Shown: positions 6,047 to 14,678 of the stretch, piece by piece | How positions within the stretch are numbered: the first letter of the stretch is position 1 | Layout of the letters: each line of letters begins with the position of its first letter | DNA from: a virus | Virus record (IMG/VR): IMGVR_UViG_3300047363_000043 | Span: 1 to 20,855 of that record | Length of the DNA stretch: 20,855 nucleotides | Direction: 5' to 3' (one strand) | Position numbers and translations under genes: made by a program | Notes under the pieces: generated by a model | The model's database searches: none | What the model was told of the DNA's origin: nothing | What the model saw: the letters and a program-made list of their open reading frames with translations, nothing else

Positions 6047-6219
6047 TATTTTCTCCTTTTAAATAATTTATTTGCTTGTTTTTGAAATGACCACTCTAAA
6101 AATCTATCAAACCAGCTACTTTTCTGCTTCTTGCCAAAAATAGAATCCCAGTTTGCATCTATCTTCTTTTTATCTTCAGAACGTCTGCCCGAGCCTTTGC
6201 CTCCATGCCATTTAGTCAT
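6046..6219 (-). CDS. Small conserved phage protein (HGGKGS ... NWDSIFG type), function unknown
   Basis: This 57-residue, strongly basic protein starts MTKWHGGKGSGRRSEDKKK and contains NWDSIFGKKQK at about residues 23-33. I recognise this pairing of an N-terminal HGGKGS.R segment with a central NWD.IFG as recurring in small proteins of many tailed phages; I know of no assigned function. The second half (SWFDRFLEWSFQKQANKLFK) could form an amphipathic helix. The ATG at 6219 overlaps the upstream gene's stop (ATGA) and its own stop overlaps the DUF3310 start (TAATG), so it is coupled on both sides. Confidence that it is a real gene is high; a nucleic-acid-binding role would be a guess based only on charge. 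Confidence 0.75.
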   Translation of the reverse strand: MTKWHGGKGSGRRSEDKKKIDANWDSIFGKKQKSSWFDRFLEWSFQKQANKLFKRRK

Positions 6220-6713
6220 GTGTAACTCACCCTTTTAAAACTTATATCTATGTTTTGCTGTTTAAATGTTTCCTTTGCTTCTAAGTAGTCTGGATGCATA
6301 AATCTAAACAACTCTTCTATACTAAATAGCACCACATCCTTATCTTTTGCATGTAGCTGTTTTAATTTAGGCAATTCACACTCCAGGTCACAGACAATAG
6401 CTATTTTGTTGTTTTTGTATTTGTAGCATCTATATTCAGATTCAAGTTCTGCATATCCATTGTCTTTAGCTTTTTTAATTAACGCTGTATAGGCTCTATA
6501 CATCATTTCAATCATTTGCATTTTTTCTTTCGGGCTTGCATTTATCAAAGAATCATCAAACAGCATTTGCGCTTTGCAAAACTTTATCTCTAGCTGCACA
6601 TCTACACATTTAAATAATCTTTTCTTACCACCCCATTTTGTATTTATAGAAGTTTCATAATTTCTATAATCTTTTAATTGTTTTGCTAATGTTTCTTTTA
6701 AATAATTTTTCAT
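6216..6713 (-). CDS. Hypothetical protein, 165 residues
   Basis: I do not recognise this protein. It is mostly predicted helix, rich in lysine and glutamate, with a central stretch (KEKMQMIEMMYRAYTALIKK, about residues 62-81) suggesting a helical bundle, and a later strand-like part (KIAIVCDLECELPKL). No catalytic motif, membrane segment or signal peptide is visible. The ATG at 6713 has no Shine-Dalgarno sequence; a copy of the conserved motif (6715-6731) abuts it, which would fit a leaderless message. Its stop overlaps the next start (ATGA). It lies in the same transcription direction between a DNA methyltransferase and small conserved phage genes. Confidence 0.72.
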   Translation of the reverse strand: MKNYLKETLAKQLKDYRNYETSINTKWGGKKRLFKCVDVQLEIKFCKAQMLFDDSLINASPKEKMQMIEMMYRAYTALIKKAKDNGYAELESEYRCYKYKNNKIAIVCDLECELPKLKQLHAKDKDVVLFSIEELFRFMHPDYLEAKETFKQQNIDISFKRVSYT

Positions 6714-6737: not shown

Positions 6738-7697
6738 TTAAATAATTTTGAGTTGATAATCATTTGTAGTTTGTTTTGCAATTCTTTTTTTAGCTATTTT
6801 TATATATTCATTACTAAGCTCACACAAAATAGAATTTCTTTTATGATTAGTTGCAACAATTCCTGTTGTACCACTACCACTAAATGGATCTAAAACTGTA
6901 CCGCCCTCTGGACATCCAGCCAATACACATGGTTCTATCAAGTCCATTGGAAATGTTGCAAAATGTGCATCTTTAAATGGTTTGGTGCTAACTTTCCACA
7001 CAGATCTTTTATTTTTCTTTTTTGTACCTTTAAATTTATGCAAGTTGTCCCTAGATCCATTTACTCCATCAACTGGTTTTATTTTATTTGGTGAATTTGC
7101 AACGCCTTCCGTTATACAATCTTCTTTAATGGCTTCATTGTCATAATAATATTTTGGGTTTTTAGATAGCAAAAATATATATTCATGTGATTTAGTGCAT
7201 CTATCTTTTACACTTTCAGGCATTGGGTTAGGTTTATGCCAAATAATATCTTGTCTTAAATACCAACCATCCTGTTGTAGTGCTAGTGCTACTCTCCAAG
7301 GTACACCAAGCAAGTTTTTTGGTTTCAAACCAATGTTTTTTATCATATTAGTGTGATTTGAAATATTTCCATATTTTTTTTGCATTTCTTGTGATCTATT
7401 AGAATGACCTTTATCTTTATTAGTATTAAAACCTTTTCCATTTATGGCATTGTAGCTATCGCCTAAATTTAACCACAAAGTTCCATCAGATCTTAATACC
7501 CTTTTTACCTCTTTAAATACATTTACTAAATTATTAATAAATTCATCTATTGTATTTTCTAATCCAAATTGTCCATCTACACCATAGTCTCTTAAACCAA
7601 AATATGGAGGACTTGTTATACAAGTGTTAATAGACTCGTCTTCTATTTTTTTTAATGTTTCTAAACAATTTCCTTTATATATTGTAATTTTATTCAT
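6738..7697 (-). CDS. DNA methyltransferase, beta-type amino-group (N6-adenine or N4-cytosine)
   Basis: At 319 residues it has the beta-class motif order: catalytic motif IV TSPPY at residues 28-32 near the N-terminus, and the S-adenosylmethionine-binding motif I DPFSGSGTTG at 270-279 near the C-terminus. Between them lie 'RVLRSDGTLWLNLGDSY' (motif V-VI region) and 'WHKPNPMPE', typical of this class. SPPY fits both N4-cytosine and some N6-adenine enzymes, so the modified base is not settled. No matching restriction endonuclease is adjacent, so it is probably an orphan enzyme protecting phage DNA or regulating its replication. The ATG at 7697 lacks a strong Shine-Dalgarno sequence and lies just downstream of a long palindrome and an iteron array. 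Confidence 0.92.
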   Translation of the reverse strand: MNKITIYKGNCLETLKKIEDESINTCITSPPYFGLRDYGVDGQFGLENTIDEFINNLVNVFKEVKRVLRSDGTLWLNLGDSYNAINGKGFNTNKDKGHSNRSQEMQKKYGNISNHTNMIKNIGLKPKNLLGVPWRVALALQQDGWYLRQDIIWHKPNPMPESVKDRCTKSHEYIFLLSKNPKYYYDNEAIKEDCITEGVANSPNKIKPVDGVNGSRDNLHKFKGTKKKNKRSVWKVSTKPFKDAHFATFPMDLIEPCVLAGCPEGGTVLDPFSGSGTTGIVATNHKRNSILCELSNEYIKIAKKRIAKQTTNDYQLKII

Positions 7698-7718: not shown

Positions 7719-7765
7719 CAGGGAACAGGGATATACCTTATAGGTATATATCCCTTCCCTCCCTG
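7719..7765. repeat. Long interrupted palindrome upstream of the methyltransferase gene
   Basis: The outer arms CAGGGA (7719-7724) and TCCCTG (7760-7765) enclose an inner palindrome at 7727-7755 whose arms are AGGGATATACC and GGTATATATCCCT around a TTATA centre, with two extra bases in one arm. Either strand could fold into a stable stem for AT-rich DNA. It lies in the 131-base gap between the methyltransferase and the primase-helicase gene, directly beside the iterons. No T-run follows the stem on the minus strand, so a simple terminator is unlikely; an origin element, a regulator binding site or an RNA structure is more plausible. Confidence 0.6.
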
Positions 7766-7779
7766 GTAATAGTTGATTT

Positions 7780-7830
7780 ATCCCTAAAACTTCCCTCATT
7801 ATTCCCTCAAACTTCCCTCTAACTTCCCTC
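7780..7830. repeat. Five iterons at exact 11-bp spacing
   Basis: On the plus strand TTCCCTC begins at 7791, 7802, 7813 and 7824, and a diverged copy (ATCCCTA) begins at 7780, so five copies lie in strict 11-base register, about one helical turn. The intervening four bases vary (CATT-like or AAAC-like). The last copy overlaps the TGA stop of the primase-helicase gene. A helically phased array beside a replication gene and a palindrome is typical of initiator-binding origins, but an operator array controlling the methyltransferase is also possible. The periodicity is directly visible; the function is inferred. Confidence 0.75.
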
Positions 7831-9721
7831 ATTTAAACTTTGGCGCTAACTTATGATATTGAGCTGACTGATAACCAAGCTCATCAAATTGCACCACCTC
7901 TTCAAGTTCTACTAATTTTTTAAGTAATTTTTTAACACTATCTACTGATAATATATTTCCATCTGAATCTCTTACCTTGTCTTTTAAATCTTTTGGCCAA
8001 AAATAGTGATCTCCTGGATTATCTTTATCTGCAAAAATAGATTCTCGCTCTAAGGCCTCAAGCGTTAATTTTTGCTTATATGTAAGTTTATCTTTAGCCT
8101 TAAAATCAACATCAGTTAGTTCTAAGAAGCCTGATGTTAGCTCTAAACCCTCACCTATAAGATCAACCTCTTTAAATGCAAAGTTCTTTTCAGACATGCC
8201 TTGGCCATCTTTATTAAGAGTTTGTTGAAAAGATACATACATTTGATCATTCTTATCTGTTCTTTTTACCGAAAATTCATAATCCAGGGATGCACCTATA
8301 ACACTTGAACCTCTTGCTCTATTACCTTCGTGGCCACTGTGATGTACTATGCATACGTTACAGCCATAAGCAGCAATAAGACCATCTAGCTGATGGATAA
8401 AGTTGCCTACGTCTTCTGCTGAGTTCTCATTACCACCACCAAAGTTACGTTGGAATGTATCAACAACAATCATGCCTATATCACCCTCTATAGCTTTTAT
8501 AGCTTCAATTTCTTGTATTAAGCGTTCAAAATCATCCTTATCGCCAATTCTTACAGCCCTATCAGATAGATATAAAGGTACTTTTTCTAGGCTGTATTGT
8601 GCTTGCTGCCATGCGGATAGCCTCCGCTTTATGCCTCTCTGGCCTTCGCCACAAATATAGAGTACAGGCATTTTTTTTGGCGATTCATTTCCATAAAAGT
8701 CTTTGCCAGAAGCTATAGCGCAACTCATTGCCACCGCTACGAATGATTTACCGCTTTTAGGCGCTCCATATATCTGCATTAAAGACTCTGATTCACACAC
8801 ATCTTTAATTAACCAATTTGGATTAGTTACCTGGCTTAATACCTCATCTGCTCTAGTAAAGGTTATAGATCCCTTTTCTTTTTTTTCTTTTGTTGTTTTG
8901 ATGTAATCTTCTAATTCTTTAGATGTCACAAATTGTTTACGTTCAACAGCATCCCATAAATCATCTTTATCATTAAAGTCTTCTGGTGGTTGTATAACTT
9001 TTACAGTGCAGCCATTTGCCTTTAGCTCTTTAGATATTTCACTAGCACATTTATAGCCTGCATCATCATTATCTGGCCATATCCAAACACTCCTACCATA
9101 AATAGGTGACCAATCTGTTTTGTTCCAACCTGTAGCACCTCCATGCCAGGTGCATACATCGTAATCATAAATACTTTCAGCACCCCTCATAGCCTTCTCA
9201 CCTTCGCCTAGTAGCACTGGCTTGTCTGGGTGTTGGTTTGTCATATATAAAGGCAATAAACCTTCTGGCCTTTGCATTGACCAAGATCCATTGGCATTTA
9301 AGCTAAATGGTGCATATTTCATTGGCAAGCCAGCATGTCTGATAACCATAAAGTTATCAGAATACTTAACTTTTACCTCTGCCTCTCTGTAAAGAGCAAC
9401 CATTTGCTCTCTAGTAAATGATCTTGCATTGCTTTTAGTAACATTGGGGGTTATGTCACTAACATTACTTTGGGAGTTATTTTGCAATGCAAGACCAAAC
9501 TGGTTTAAAACATCTTCAACATTTCTGCCATTTTGCTCTATGAGCCATTTAACACCACCGCCTTCGCCTTGTTCAAAGTCATAAAACTGTCCTGTCTCCA
9601 GGGTAAATACTAATGAACCTTTGTTGTTCCATCTCCATTCGTGGGACTTTTCAACTTTAGGCTCACCAAGTATCTGCCTAGCTACATCTGGTGCTATTTT
9701 TTGCCAATCGTGATCCTGCAT
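7829..9721 (-). CDS. Bifunctional TOPRIM primase - RecA-like helicase
   Basis: This encodes 630 residues in three parts. Residues 1-75 resemble a primase zinc-ribbon region in layout (GSLVFTLETGQFYDFEQGEGGG near 35-56) but lack the metal-binding cysteines. Residues about 165-260 are a TOPRIM domain: the catalytic glutamate segment GEGEKA (172-177) and the metal-binding PDNDDAG (216-222). Residues about 300-500 form a RepA/DnaB-like RecA-fold ATPase: Walker A GAPKSGKS (319-326), Walker B IVVDT (418-422) and the HHSGH sensor motif (460-464). The C-terminus is helical and may hold a winged helix. It would unwind the fork and possibly make primers. The ATG directly follows the stop of the SSB-like gene, implying coupled expression. 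Confidence 0.9.
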   Translation of the reverse strand: MQDHDWQKIAPDVARQILGEPKVEKSHEWRWNNKGSLVFTLETGQFYDFEQGEGGGVKWLIEQNGRNVEDVLNQFGLALQNNSQSNVSDITPNVTKSNARSFTREQMVALYREAEVKVKYSDNFMVIRHAGLPMKYAPFSLNANGSWSMQRPEGLLPLYMTNQHPDKPVLLGEGEKAMRGAESIYDYDVCTWHGGATGWNKTDWSPIYGRSVWIWPDNDDAGYKCASEISKELKANGCTVKVIQPPEDFNDKDDLWDAVERKQFVTSKELEDYIKTTKEKKEKGSITFTRADEVLSQVTNPNWLIKDVCESESLMQIYGAPKSGKSFVAVAMSCAIASGKDFYGNESPKKMPVLYICGEGQRGIKRRLSAWQQAQYSLEKVPLYLSDRAVRIGDKDDFERLIQEIEAIKAIEGDIGMIVVDTFQRNFGGGNENSAEDVGNFIHQLDGLIAAYGCNVCIVHHSGHEGNRARGSSVIGASLDYEFSVKRTDKNDQMYVSFQQTLNKDGQGMSEKNFAFKEVDLIGEGLELTSGFLELTDVDFKAKDKLTYKQKLTLEALERESIFADKDNPGDHYFWPKDLKDKVRDSDGNILSVDSVKKLLKKLVELEEVVQFDELGYQSAQYHKLAPKFK

Positions 9722-10336
9722 CTAAAATGGGATATCGTCTTCTGTTAACTCTTGTCTATCTATCTGTGCCTGGGTAGCTGCTGCTACTTGTTGGCTCATG
9801 CTAATCTCACCATCTGCAATCAATGGCTCTTCCCATACAGGCACAACAAAGTCTGCTGGCCTATCTTTCCATCCTAAAAACTTAAATAAAGGCACATTAA
9901 TGTTTAATGCTTTTAGCTCTATAACTTCGTGTTCATTTGTATATTCAAATACAGGCACTTTGCCTTTGTTAGCTTCTATGTCTTTATAAAACTGCACTGC
10001 TATCTTCTTAAAAGCCTGGTATTCACCAAAGCTAAACCTAGACCATAGATACTGCTTGCTGTCATTGGTGAATATATTCATGCTAAACGCTTCTTTATAT
10101 CCTTCCTCTGGCTTAGGTATCTTTATAAAAGGTGTTTCACTGTATTCAGTGTTATAAGCACCATTCCACATACCCCAACCTGTTTTGATTGTATCTGGAC
10201 AAATCATAATTTTATCTAGGCTTACAACCTCTTCATTTGCATGCCATTTCTTATCAGCATTTTTATGCATGATGTAACTACTAGTAGCTCCACCTGTATC
10301 ATTCGTAAATATATCTTCCATCTCTCTTTTCTCCAT
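9722..10336 (-). CDS. Candidate single-stranded DNA-binding protein analogue (acidic ...DDIPF tail)
   Basis: This 204-residue protein ends ELTEDDIPF, essentially the acidic, aromatic-ended tail by which bacterial and phage SSB proteins recruit partners. The body has many strand-like segments (DKIMICPDTIKTGWGMW, FIKIPKP, KVPVFEYTNEHEVIELKAL) compatible with an OB-like fold, but I do not recognise a canonical SSB domain. A Q/A-rich linker (MSQQVAAATQAQIDRQ) separates body and tail, as in SSB. It directly precedes the primase-helicase gene, as expected for a replication module. The ATG at 10336 overlaps the upstream stop (TAATG); an ATG at 10321 with GGAG 9 bases upstream is an alternative start. 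The SSB role is inferred from tail and context. Confidence 0.6.
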   Translation of the reverse strand: MEKREMEDIFTNDTGGATSSYIMHKNADKKWHANEEVVSLDKIMICPDTIKTGWGMWNGAYNTEYSETPFIKIPKPEEGYKEAFSMNIFTNDSKQYLWSRFSFGEYQAFKKIAVQFYKDIEANKGKVPVFEYTNEHEVIELKALNINVPLFKFLGWKDRPADFVVPVWEEPLIADGEISMSQQVAAATQAQIDRQELTEDDIPF

Positions 10337-14144: not shown

Positions 14145-14678
14145 TTAGCCTAATTTGTTTAGGGTATTTTTTTGTTTATCCTGCTCTTTTTTACAACAAC
14201 TCTTATAAAAGTCATAAGCATCATATTTAGTAAATGCTTTAAATTCCTCTAAATTGTATTCCTTATAAAAATTCATAAGACTGTCCCCAAACATTAATTT
14301 AAAAGGCTTAGATATACTTTCAGCAGTTTTTAGTTTAGATGCAGCGTCTACAAGCATAAGGTGTTTTAAAAACTCAGTAGGTAATATTTTTTTATTTCTG
14401 CCATCATTTCCGCACTGAGATATTTCTACAAGATCATTTTTAATTAAAATTTTTAGCTTTGACCTTATACTATTTTCACTACTCATGGTTGTATTAGCCA
14501 ATATAGTCATGGTCACATCATTGTCTTCTAAAGACTCTGTGTAAATAAACTTCATTACAAAATCAGTCATTTTATCTAACTTAATACCTGTCTGTGATTC
14601 AAACATAAATTGTGCTTTAGCAACAGCAACTTCATATTTTGCTAAATTATTCATAATATCTAATAAAGTAACTTGCAT
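14145..14678 (-). CDS. Winged-helix-like putative regulator, 177 residues
   Basis: The segment TMTILANTTMSSENSIRSKL (about residues 56-75) followed by KILIKNDLVEISQCGNDGRN and KKILPTEF looks like a winged helix: helix-turn-helix, then a 'wing' hairpin with basic residues, as in MarR/DprA-type regulators. The N-terminal helix (YEVAVAKAQFMFESQTG) could dimerise. The C-terminal 70 residues are helical and basic with two adjacent cysteines. A role as a phage transcription regulator is inferred. The ATG at 14678 has TAAGGA eight bases upstream, formed by the end of the recombinase-like gene, so the two are translationally coupled. Confidence 0.55.
   Translation of the reverse strand: MQVTLLDIMNNLAKYEVAVAKAQFMFESQTGIKLDKMTDFVMKFIYTESLEDNDVTMTILANTTMSSENSIRSKLKILIKNDLVEISQCGNDGRNKKILPTEFLKHLMLVDAASKLKTAESISKPFKLMFGDSLMNFYKEYNLEEFKAFTKYDAYDFYKSCCKKEQDKQKNTLNKLG

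Follow-up and report, generated by a model that had tools for sequence, protein, structure and literature searches.

The array of short direct repeats and the hairpin that follow the primase-helicase gene of this virus very probably mark a candidate start of genome replication. On the evidence of sequence comparison, we consider it highly probable that array and hairpin form the origin, that the adjacent primase-helicase is its own initiator by means of its C-terminal domain, and that the two are exchanged as one specificity cassette. What carries this reading is the array itself, the hairpin, the conservation of their layout, the concerted change of their motif, the swaps between phages, and the way in which the helicase C-terminus tracks the iteron type. 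The sequence studied is IMG/VR virus record IMGVR_UViG_3300047363_000043, positions 1-20,855, and the whole of this 20.9-kb stretch is called the window here. An earlier note had taken the array and a palindrome beside a replication gene for an origin, and a layout that is conserved while its motif changes supports that view. It had also left the initiator still to be identified; a candidate with good computational support can now be named, which is the predicted C-terminal winged-helix domain of the adjacent primase-helicase.

Five 11-bp repeats had been claimed, TTCCCTC at 7791, 7802, 7813 and 7824 with ATCCCTA at 7780, and these are indeed present and all 11 bp apart. Read on the minus strand, which encodes all window genes, the array is GAGGGAAGTTAGAGGGAAGTTTGAGGGAATAATGAGGGAAGTTTTAGGGAT, five units of the 11-bp repeat AGGGAAGTTNN positioned 3' of the helicase gene. 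The 3' end of this gene, AAATGAGGGAAGTTAGAGGGAAGTTTGAGGGAATAATGAGGGAAGTTTTAGGGAT on the minus strand, contains five AGGGA cores with an exact 11-bp period, and the first copy overlaps the helicase stop codon (7829-7831). The arrangement TTCCCTC-N4-TTCCCTC occurs three times, and never in 100 shuffled versions of the 20.9-kb window with dinucleotide counts preserved. Furthermore, the array is the joint top-scoring short-period repeat (9-24 bp) within the window, and the top period-11 site in those relatives of the same iteron type that have a complete site. As in iteron origins, several short direct repeats are thus found beside a putative replication-initiator gene. An AT-rich spacer, AAATCAACAATTA, lies next to the iterons and is the candidate unwinding element, giving the order array, spacer, hairpin; AAATCAACAA-like spacer sequence is retained in AGGGA types, and also in L016 despite its changed iterons. 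The palindrome proves to be a hairpin at 7720-7764, AGGGAGGGAAGGGATATATACCT-ATA-AGGTATATCCCTGTTCCCT; its apical stem is perfect over 8 bp, its loop has 3 nt, and both of its arms carry the same AGGGA core as the array. GC skew, which had been suggested as a check on the origin, does not mark the site: it is uniformly negative across the window, without an inflection at the array, and therefore neither supports nor opposes an origin. The features of the site are the following.

7825 to 7829, minus strand: iteron 1, core AGGGA, overlapping the helicase stop codon (seen in the sequence; kept in relatives)
7814 to 7818, minus strand: iteron 2, core AGGGA (sequence and shuffle test)
7803 to 7807, minus strand: iteron 3, core AGGGA (sequence and shuffle test)
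7792 to 7796, minus strand: iteron 4, core AGGGA (sequence and shuffle test)
7781 to 7785, minus strand: iteron 5, core AGGGA with diverged flank TAGGGAT (sequence)
7765 to 7780, minus strand: AT-rich spacer AAATCAACTATTACC (comparison of relatives)
7742 to 7764, minus strand: hairpin 5' arm with three direct AGGGA copies (sequence and arm comparison)
7739 to 7741, minus strand: hairpin loop ATA (loop comparison across types)
7720 to 7738, minus strand: hairpin 3' arm with two inverted AGGGA copies (sequence and arm comparison)
6216 to 6713, minus strand: 165-aa conserved protein, the right-hand flank of the exchanged cassette (comparison of relatives)

Relatives were collected from IMG/VR scans with a helicase query, a 165-aa protein query and a helicase alignment, which gathered well over 100 loci, a count in which overlapping parts of one contig often appear as separate loci. 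In nearly every locus that covers the site, array, spacer and hairpin are found between the helicase stop codon and the 165-aa gene. The earlier note had proposed to look in relatives for a conserved array with changing sequence, and this is what dozens of IMG/VR relatives display, the layout persisting while the motif differs completely. At least 13 iteron motif types exist; those seen are AGGGAAGTTTG, AGGGAATTTAC, GAGTTAGTTTT, ACGGAATTTNC, GTGTGTA, GGTTTGGTTTT, GGATTGGTTTT, TTGGGTGTTAG, TGGGGTAAAA, GTACCTA, TGTCTAT, GTATGTA, TGCATAA and GGTTCC. The proposed 11-bp helical phasing holds exactly in the window and in several other types, but spacing is 10-12 bp in others and an irregular 8-12 bp in the GTGTGTA type, so that strict phasing is not a rule of the family. 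Hairpin loops are mostly NTA or TNTA, with TCT/TTCT in the GGTTTGG and GGTTCC types; at the apex (7731-7749 in the window), the loops are restricted to GTA, TTA, ATA, TTTA, TATA and TCT, while the stems vary.

In the window a methyltransferase gene lies between the hairpin and the 165-aa gene, and in L002, L008, L011 and L015 a different methyltransferase-like gene lies between the helicase gene and an intact array. Such methyltransferase-like genes on either side of the origin (6738-7697 in the window; after the helicase in the four loci) resemble the contents of an insertion hotspot. No Pfam or PHROG family matches the 165-aa protein, whose gene comes after the origin in nearly all iteron types; it was found in 12 of the 12 records tested. 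Two loci, L013 (at 8312) and L019 (at 8332), carry at similar positions a direct repeat with a 17-bp period, perfect over 33 bases and unrelated to the iterons. Another, L149 (JAAXIF010000094.1), is a 3.8-kb phage contig inside a Sphingobacteriales metagenome bin and is likely misbinned.

By these comparisons, the array and the hairpin arms change together. Among 13 types, arrays share a mean of 8.4 4-mers with their own 5' arm versus 3.6 with the hairpins of other types, and a mean of 7.8 inverted 4-mers with their own 3' arm versus 3.7 for other types (permutation p 5e-5 in both cases). Stem complementarity persists across the motif changes with a combined p of 1e-6, single hairpins being marginal against shuffles (p 0.02-0.37). 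Moreover, in five pairs of loci (L006/L031, L006/L104, L009/L038, L013/L019 and L003/L016), identity is mostly 83-99% over the 5' portion of the helicase gene and over the genes past the hairpin, yet drops to ~34-67% between mid-helicase and the end of the hairpin. The same discordance is found in G002, a GTGT type: compared to the AGGGA-type G001 and G006, its replication-region genes are mostly 85-100% identical and its helicase 59%, whereas that helicase is 71% identical to the one of GTGT-type G004, a phage that is mostly much more distant in its other replication genes. It is plain from these alignments that origin cassettes have been swapped between phages, the helicase being the discordant gene, and in a gene-by-gene comparison of the replication region no gene besides the helicase was seen to track the iteron type. 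L031 and L038 share an array but have low nucleotide identity in the C-terminus; this pair seemed at first to count against the reading, but GTGT-type C-termini share WFT..F..H...NS at the protein level in an alignment made without L038 that did include its near relatives L034 and L106.

What kind of protein, then, does the discordant gene encode? Pfam finds AAA_25 (PF13481, E 8e-38) and a TOPRIM domain, and PHROGs assigns the protein to primase/helicase families. A profile built from nine relatives retrieves a single solved relative, the RSF1010 RepA hexameric helicase (PDB 1g8y, E = 2e-6), and by this homology the protein has a RepA-type RecA-fold helicase core, putatively hexameric. The gene upstream, 9722-10336, occupies the same position as an annotated ssDNA-binding protein gene in roseophages. 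For the C-terminus, AlphaFold2 models three helices and two strands in a winged-helix layout (pLDDT 86), and the C-terminus of a GTGT-type helicase is modeled with the same order of helices and strands at a moderate pLDDT of 69. Foldseek with the C-terminal model returned mostly winged-helix DNA-binding proteins (LexA, Fur, ToxR and others), these matches being weak (best E 0.07). Model and matches point to a winged helix as the predicted fold of the C-terminus.

7829 to 9721, minus strand: TOPRIM + AAA_25 primase-helicase, 630 aa, the proposed self-loading initiator (Pfam, PHROGs, PDB profile match)
7832 to 8116, minus strand: C-terminal winged-helix domain, aa 536-630, proposed to bind the iterons (predicted structure, Mantel test, analogy with cultured isolates)
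7907 to 7945, minus strand: predicted recognition helix, aa 593-605, helix 58-70 of the model (predicted structure)

This C-terminal domain is also the part of the helicase that best follows the iteron. In a Mantel test on 34 loci, rank correlations with iteron distance were 0.48 for the C-terminal domain, 0.29 for the core, 0.15 for the TOPRIM part, 0.12 for the downstream gene and 0.09 for the helicase N-terminus; the C-terminus given the core retained 0.42 with p <= 5e-4, a permutation value that is a guide rather than an exact probability, since the loci share ancestry. Cultured phages allow a finer comparison. The window phage belongs with the CRP-822-type roseophage family (described in PMC12629253, in which a text search found no mention of origin, iterons or repeats): the six best matches of its large terminase are roseophages of this type (CRP-822 and CRP-823 with 560 and 562 bits), its portal is 46-48% identical to that of CRP-822-type isolates, it has helicase relatives among them, and the order of nuclease, SSB and helicase is similar. 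The helicases of CRP-822 and CRP-823, phages of the common Roseobacter host strain FZCC0197, are 94-100% identical over ~600 residues but 73-78% over the last 150, the difference being concentrated in the last ~108 residues. Across four isolates, CRP-822/831 versus CRP-811/823, the helicase core is 98-100% identical; CRP-831 has a C-terminus of the CRP-822 kind and CRP-811 one of the CRP-823 kind, while the N-termini differ, and 33 of the 35 type-fixed amino-acid differences fall within residues 643-750. The array is TTGTATA in CRP-822/831 and TTTGTAGT in CRP-811/823, and both hairpin arms switch along with it. With near-identical cores, and with C-termini and iterons that differ together, the iteron follows the C-terminal domain and not the core. 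The metagenomic swaps would have allowed the core as the specificity determinant, which the different iterons beside near-identical cores in CRP-822 and CRP-823 argue against; as the core moves with the C-terminus in most of those swaps, it is chiefly the four isolates, along with the Mantel test, that support the finer assignment to the C-terminus. The hairpin apex, AAACCCTTTAGGGTTT, is identical in the two iteron types of the isolates; a component of the machinery that stays constant may recognise it.

Could the array instead be an operator, at which the C-terminal domain or another regulator controls the downstream genes or the helicase operon, with replication starting elsewhere? Iteron proteins often autoregulate, the array lies between co-directional genes, and the 165-aa gene is downstream in nearly all types. 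We nonetheless regard this as unlikely, because promoter enrichment is absent at the array site, which lies 3' of the helicase gene and not ahead of its promoter, the layout survives unrelated gene insertions on either side, and the gene that tracks the array type is a replicative helicase. The chances are slimmer still that another protein is the iteron-binding initiator, as is usual in many iteron origins, e.g. RepC in RSF1010 (PMC4234260). One such protein would be the 177-aa product of 14145-14678, which is winged-helix-turn-helix-like as judged by eye, evolves fast and varies independently of iteron type, with 46-58% identity between phages whose neighbour genes are mostly 60-80% identical or more. 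It was rejected as not type-specific, diverging regardless of iteron type (57% identity between types, 29% within a type). Furthermore, the high identity of the other replication genes between G002 and G001/G006 despite unrelated iterons leaves little room for a separate initiator, and a host factor cannot account for the types, two of which occur in phages of the one strain FZCC0197.

That the repeats and hairpin act in the transcript, as attenuator, terminator or translation control, would fit the maintenance of stem complementarity through sequence change, but is very improbable: at the site no intrinsic terminator (GC-rich hairpin then T run) and no U-tract was found, the array and hairpin region has no Rfam match, and the motif tracks a domain of DNA-binding type. 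Loops such as GTA and TTTA are, moreover, of kinds known to form compact DNA hairpins. A packaging or recombination site or a G-quadruplex array is scarcely credible, since one strand is rich in G in the AGGGA, TGGGGT and GGTTTGG types but not in the GTACCTA, TGCATA, TTGTATA and TGTCTAT types, which the G-quadruplex fails to accommodate, and since the CRP-822 and CRP-823 terminases match that of the window equally well although their arrays differ.

Returning to array and hairpin as an origin, the pairing of C-terminus and iteron in the CRP isolates, together with the predicted winged helix, makes the helicase itself the most likely candidate for the missing initiator, acting through its C-terminal domain on the iterons downstream of its gene. 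From this we infer a course of binding, melting, helicase loading and hairpin priming. The C-terminal winged helix would bind the 11-bp iterons, and probably also the identical cores in the hairpin arms, which would assemble the RecA-fold helicase at the array. The AT-rich spacer would then be opened and the iteron-bearing hairpin exposed, upon which the helicase would load, and the fused primase or host enzymes would prime synthesis, the exposed hairpin possibly being the priming site. Origin and C-terminal domain would evolve and swap as one specificity cassette, like lock and key. A bolder proposal, tentative and on balance doubtful, is that a widespread family of lytic marine phages carries a single-polypeptide RSF1010-like replicon uniting helicase, primase and iteron binding, in which the iteron-bearing hairpin, with its conserved NTA/TTTA loop, is an ssDNA priming site. 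Origin specificity would be a module under rapid exchange, its diversity keeping co-infecting relatives, satellites or defence systems from firing, hijacking or cutting each other's origins. If this were true, the four isolates with their two pairings of C-terminus and iteron would constitute a directly readable recognition code.

A similar layout 3' of the helicase gene is found in the Roseobacter phages CRP-406, CRP-823, CRP-822, CRP-811 and CRP-831, and in Alteromonas XX1924, Salicola CGphi29, Idiomarinaceae 1N2-2 and Wolbachia WO; in six of the six of these cultured phages tested, the motif is enriched at the site above every other stretch of the fetched locus. The Shewanella-infecting phage MG592452 has a CGGACA-rich stretch and a hairpin past its helicase. 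No array follows the helicase gene in a Jerseyvirus (Salmonella) or in BFK20, which shows that AAA_25 helicases do not always come with this layout, and MW202475 has no clear array. In the Wolbachia phage WOVitB (L177, 4930-5250), AAGTTGGCA/AAGATGGCA repeats and an AT-rich stretch lie directly past RepA, which suggests that they are the WO phage origin. As for the host, a helicase relative ~79% identical lies on a contig of the SAR86 single cell AG-390-L11 (L150-L154), which carries bacterial housekeeping genes to ~50.2 kb and then phage genes to its end. No integrase is visible at this joint (near 50.2-50.5 kb) and integrases are reported absent from almost all CRP-822-type family members (PMC12629253), so that the joint may be an amplification chimera; otherwise it may be a prophage end. 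Whichever its origin, it suggests that the phage was inside a SAR86 cell, and SAR86 hosts have been predicted for the low-GC subgroup V of the family (PMC12629253).

These findings provide a concrete candidate origin and initiator for a mostly uncultured, widespread group of marine phages, with SAR86 as possible hosts. Since cultured phages of Roseobacter, Alteromonas, Salicola, Idiomarinaceae and Wolbachia have similar arrays and hairpins downstream of the helicase gene, the origins of many AAA_25-helicase phages may become callable from sequence alone. Furthermore, the repeated swaps of a matched domain and DNA site serve as a natural mutagenesis series for studying how winged helices recognise DNA, and make it testable whether origin types diversified against cross-talk between co-infecting phages or parasites.

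How does this compare with known systems? In Staphylococcus, SaPI Rep and SCCmec Cch2 are self-loading initiator helicases whose C-terminal domain reads an iteron origin directly downstream of their own gene (PMC7581432). The putative phage origin likewise lies directly 3' of its initiator-helicase gene, and specificity appears to reside in the C-terminal domain, in the phage by sequence co-variation. However, Rep and Cch2 are DUF927/MCM-like or D5/Primase_Cterm helicases, without a TOPRIM fusion and without an iteron-bearing hairpin as origin hallmark, whereas the phage helicase is of the AAA_25 family, with RSF1010 RepA as its sole PDB relative, and on the phage side a whole family with many iteron types is involved. 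The oriV of RSF1010 (IncQ) combines iterons, bound by RepC, with short stem-loops that are exposed and primed (PMC4234260). The phage shares iterons, a stem-loop and a helicase core detectably homologous to RepA, but no candidate for a separate RepC was seen: where RSF1010 splits the work over RepA, RepB' and RepC, helicase, TOPRIM and putative iteron-binding domain are one polypeptide, and the phage hairpin carries iteron sequence. Similarly, pRN1 of Sulfolobus has an origin stem-loop directly 3' of its replication-protein gene, conserved in structure and not in sequence (PMC4234260), a position and a preference for structure over sequence that the phage shares; pRN1 differs in its archaeo-eukaryotic primase with SF3 helicase, its ~100-nt stem-loop and its lack of an iteron array. 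P4 alpha unites primase and helicase in a single chain and binds ori repeats with a winged-helix domain (PMC4234260). The phage protein is likewise a single-chain primase-helicase, with a predicted winged-helix domain, but of another helicase family. To our knowledge, the P4 ori lacks such an iteron-bearing hairpin directly 3' of the gene. In lambdoid phages, each type has an O DNA-binding domain matched to its iterons, and the two are exchanged together as a module, like those of the phage; in lambda, however, the O gene itself contains the iterons and its product is no helicase, whereas the phage iterons lie 3' of a helicase gene. The logic is thus a known one, shared with SaPI Rep, Cch2, P4 alpha, RSF1010 and pRN1, and what is new is that the helicase is of another family, that the hairpin bears iteron sequence, and that an unusually large number of origin types is exchanged.
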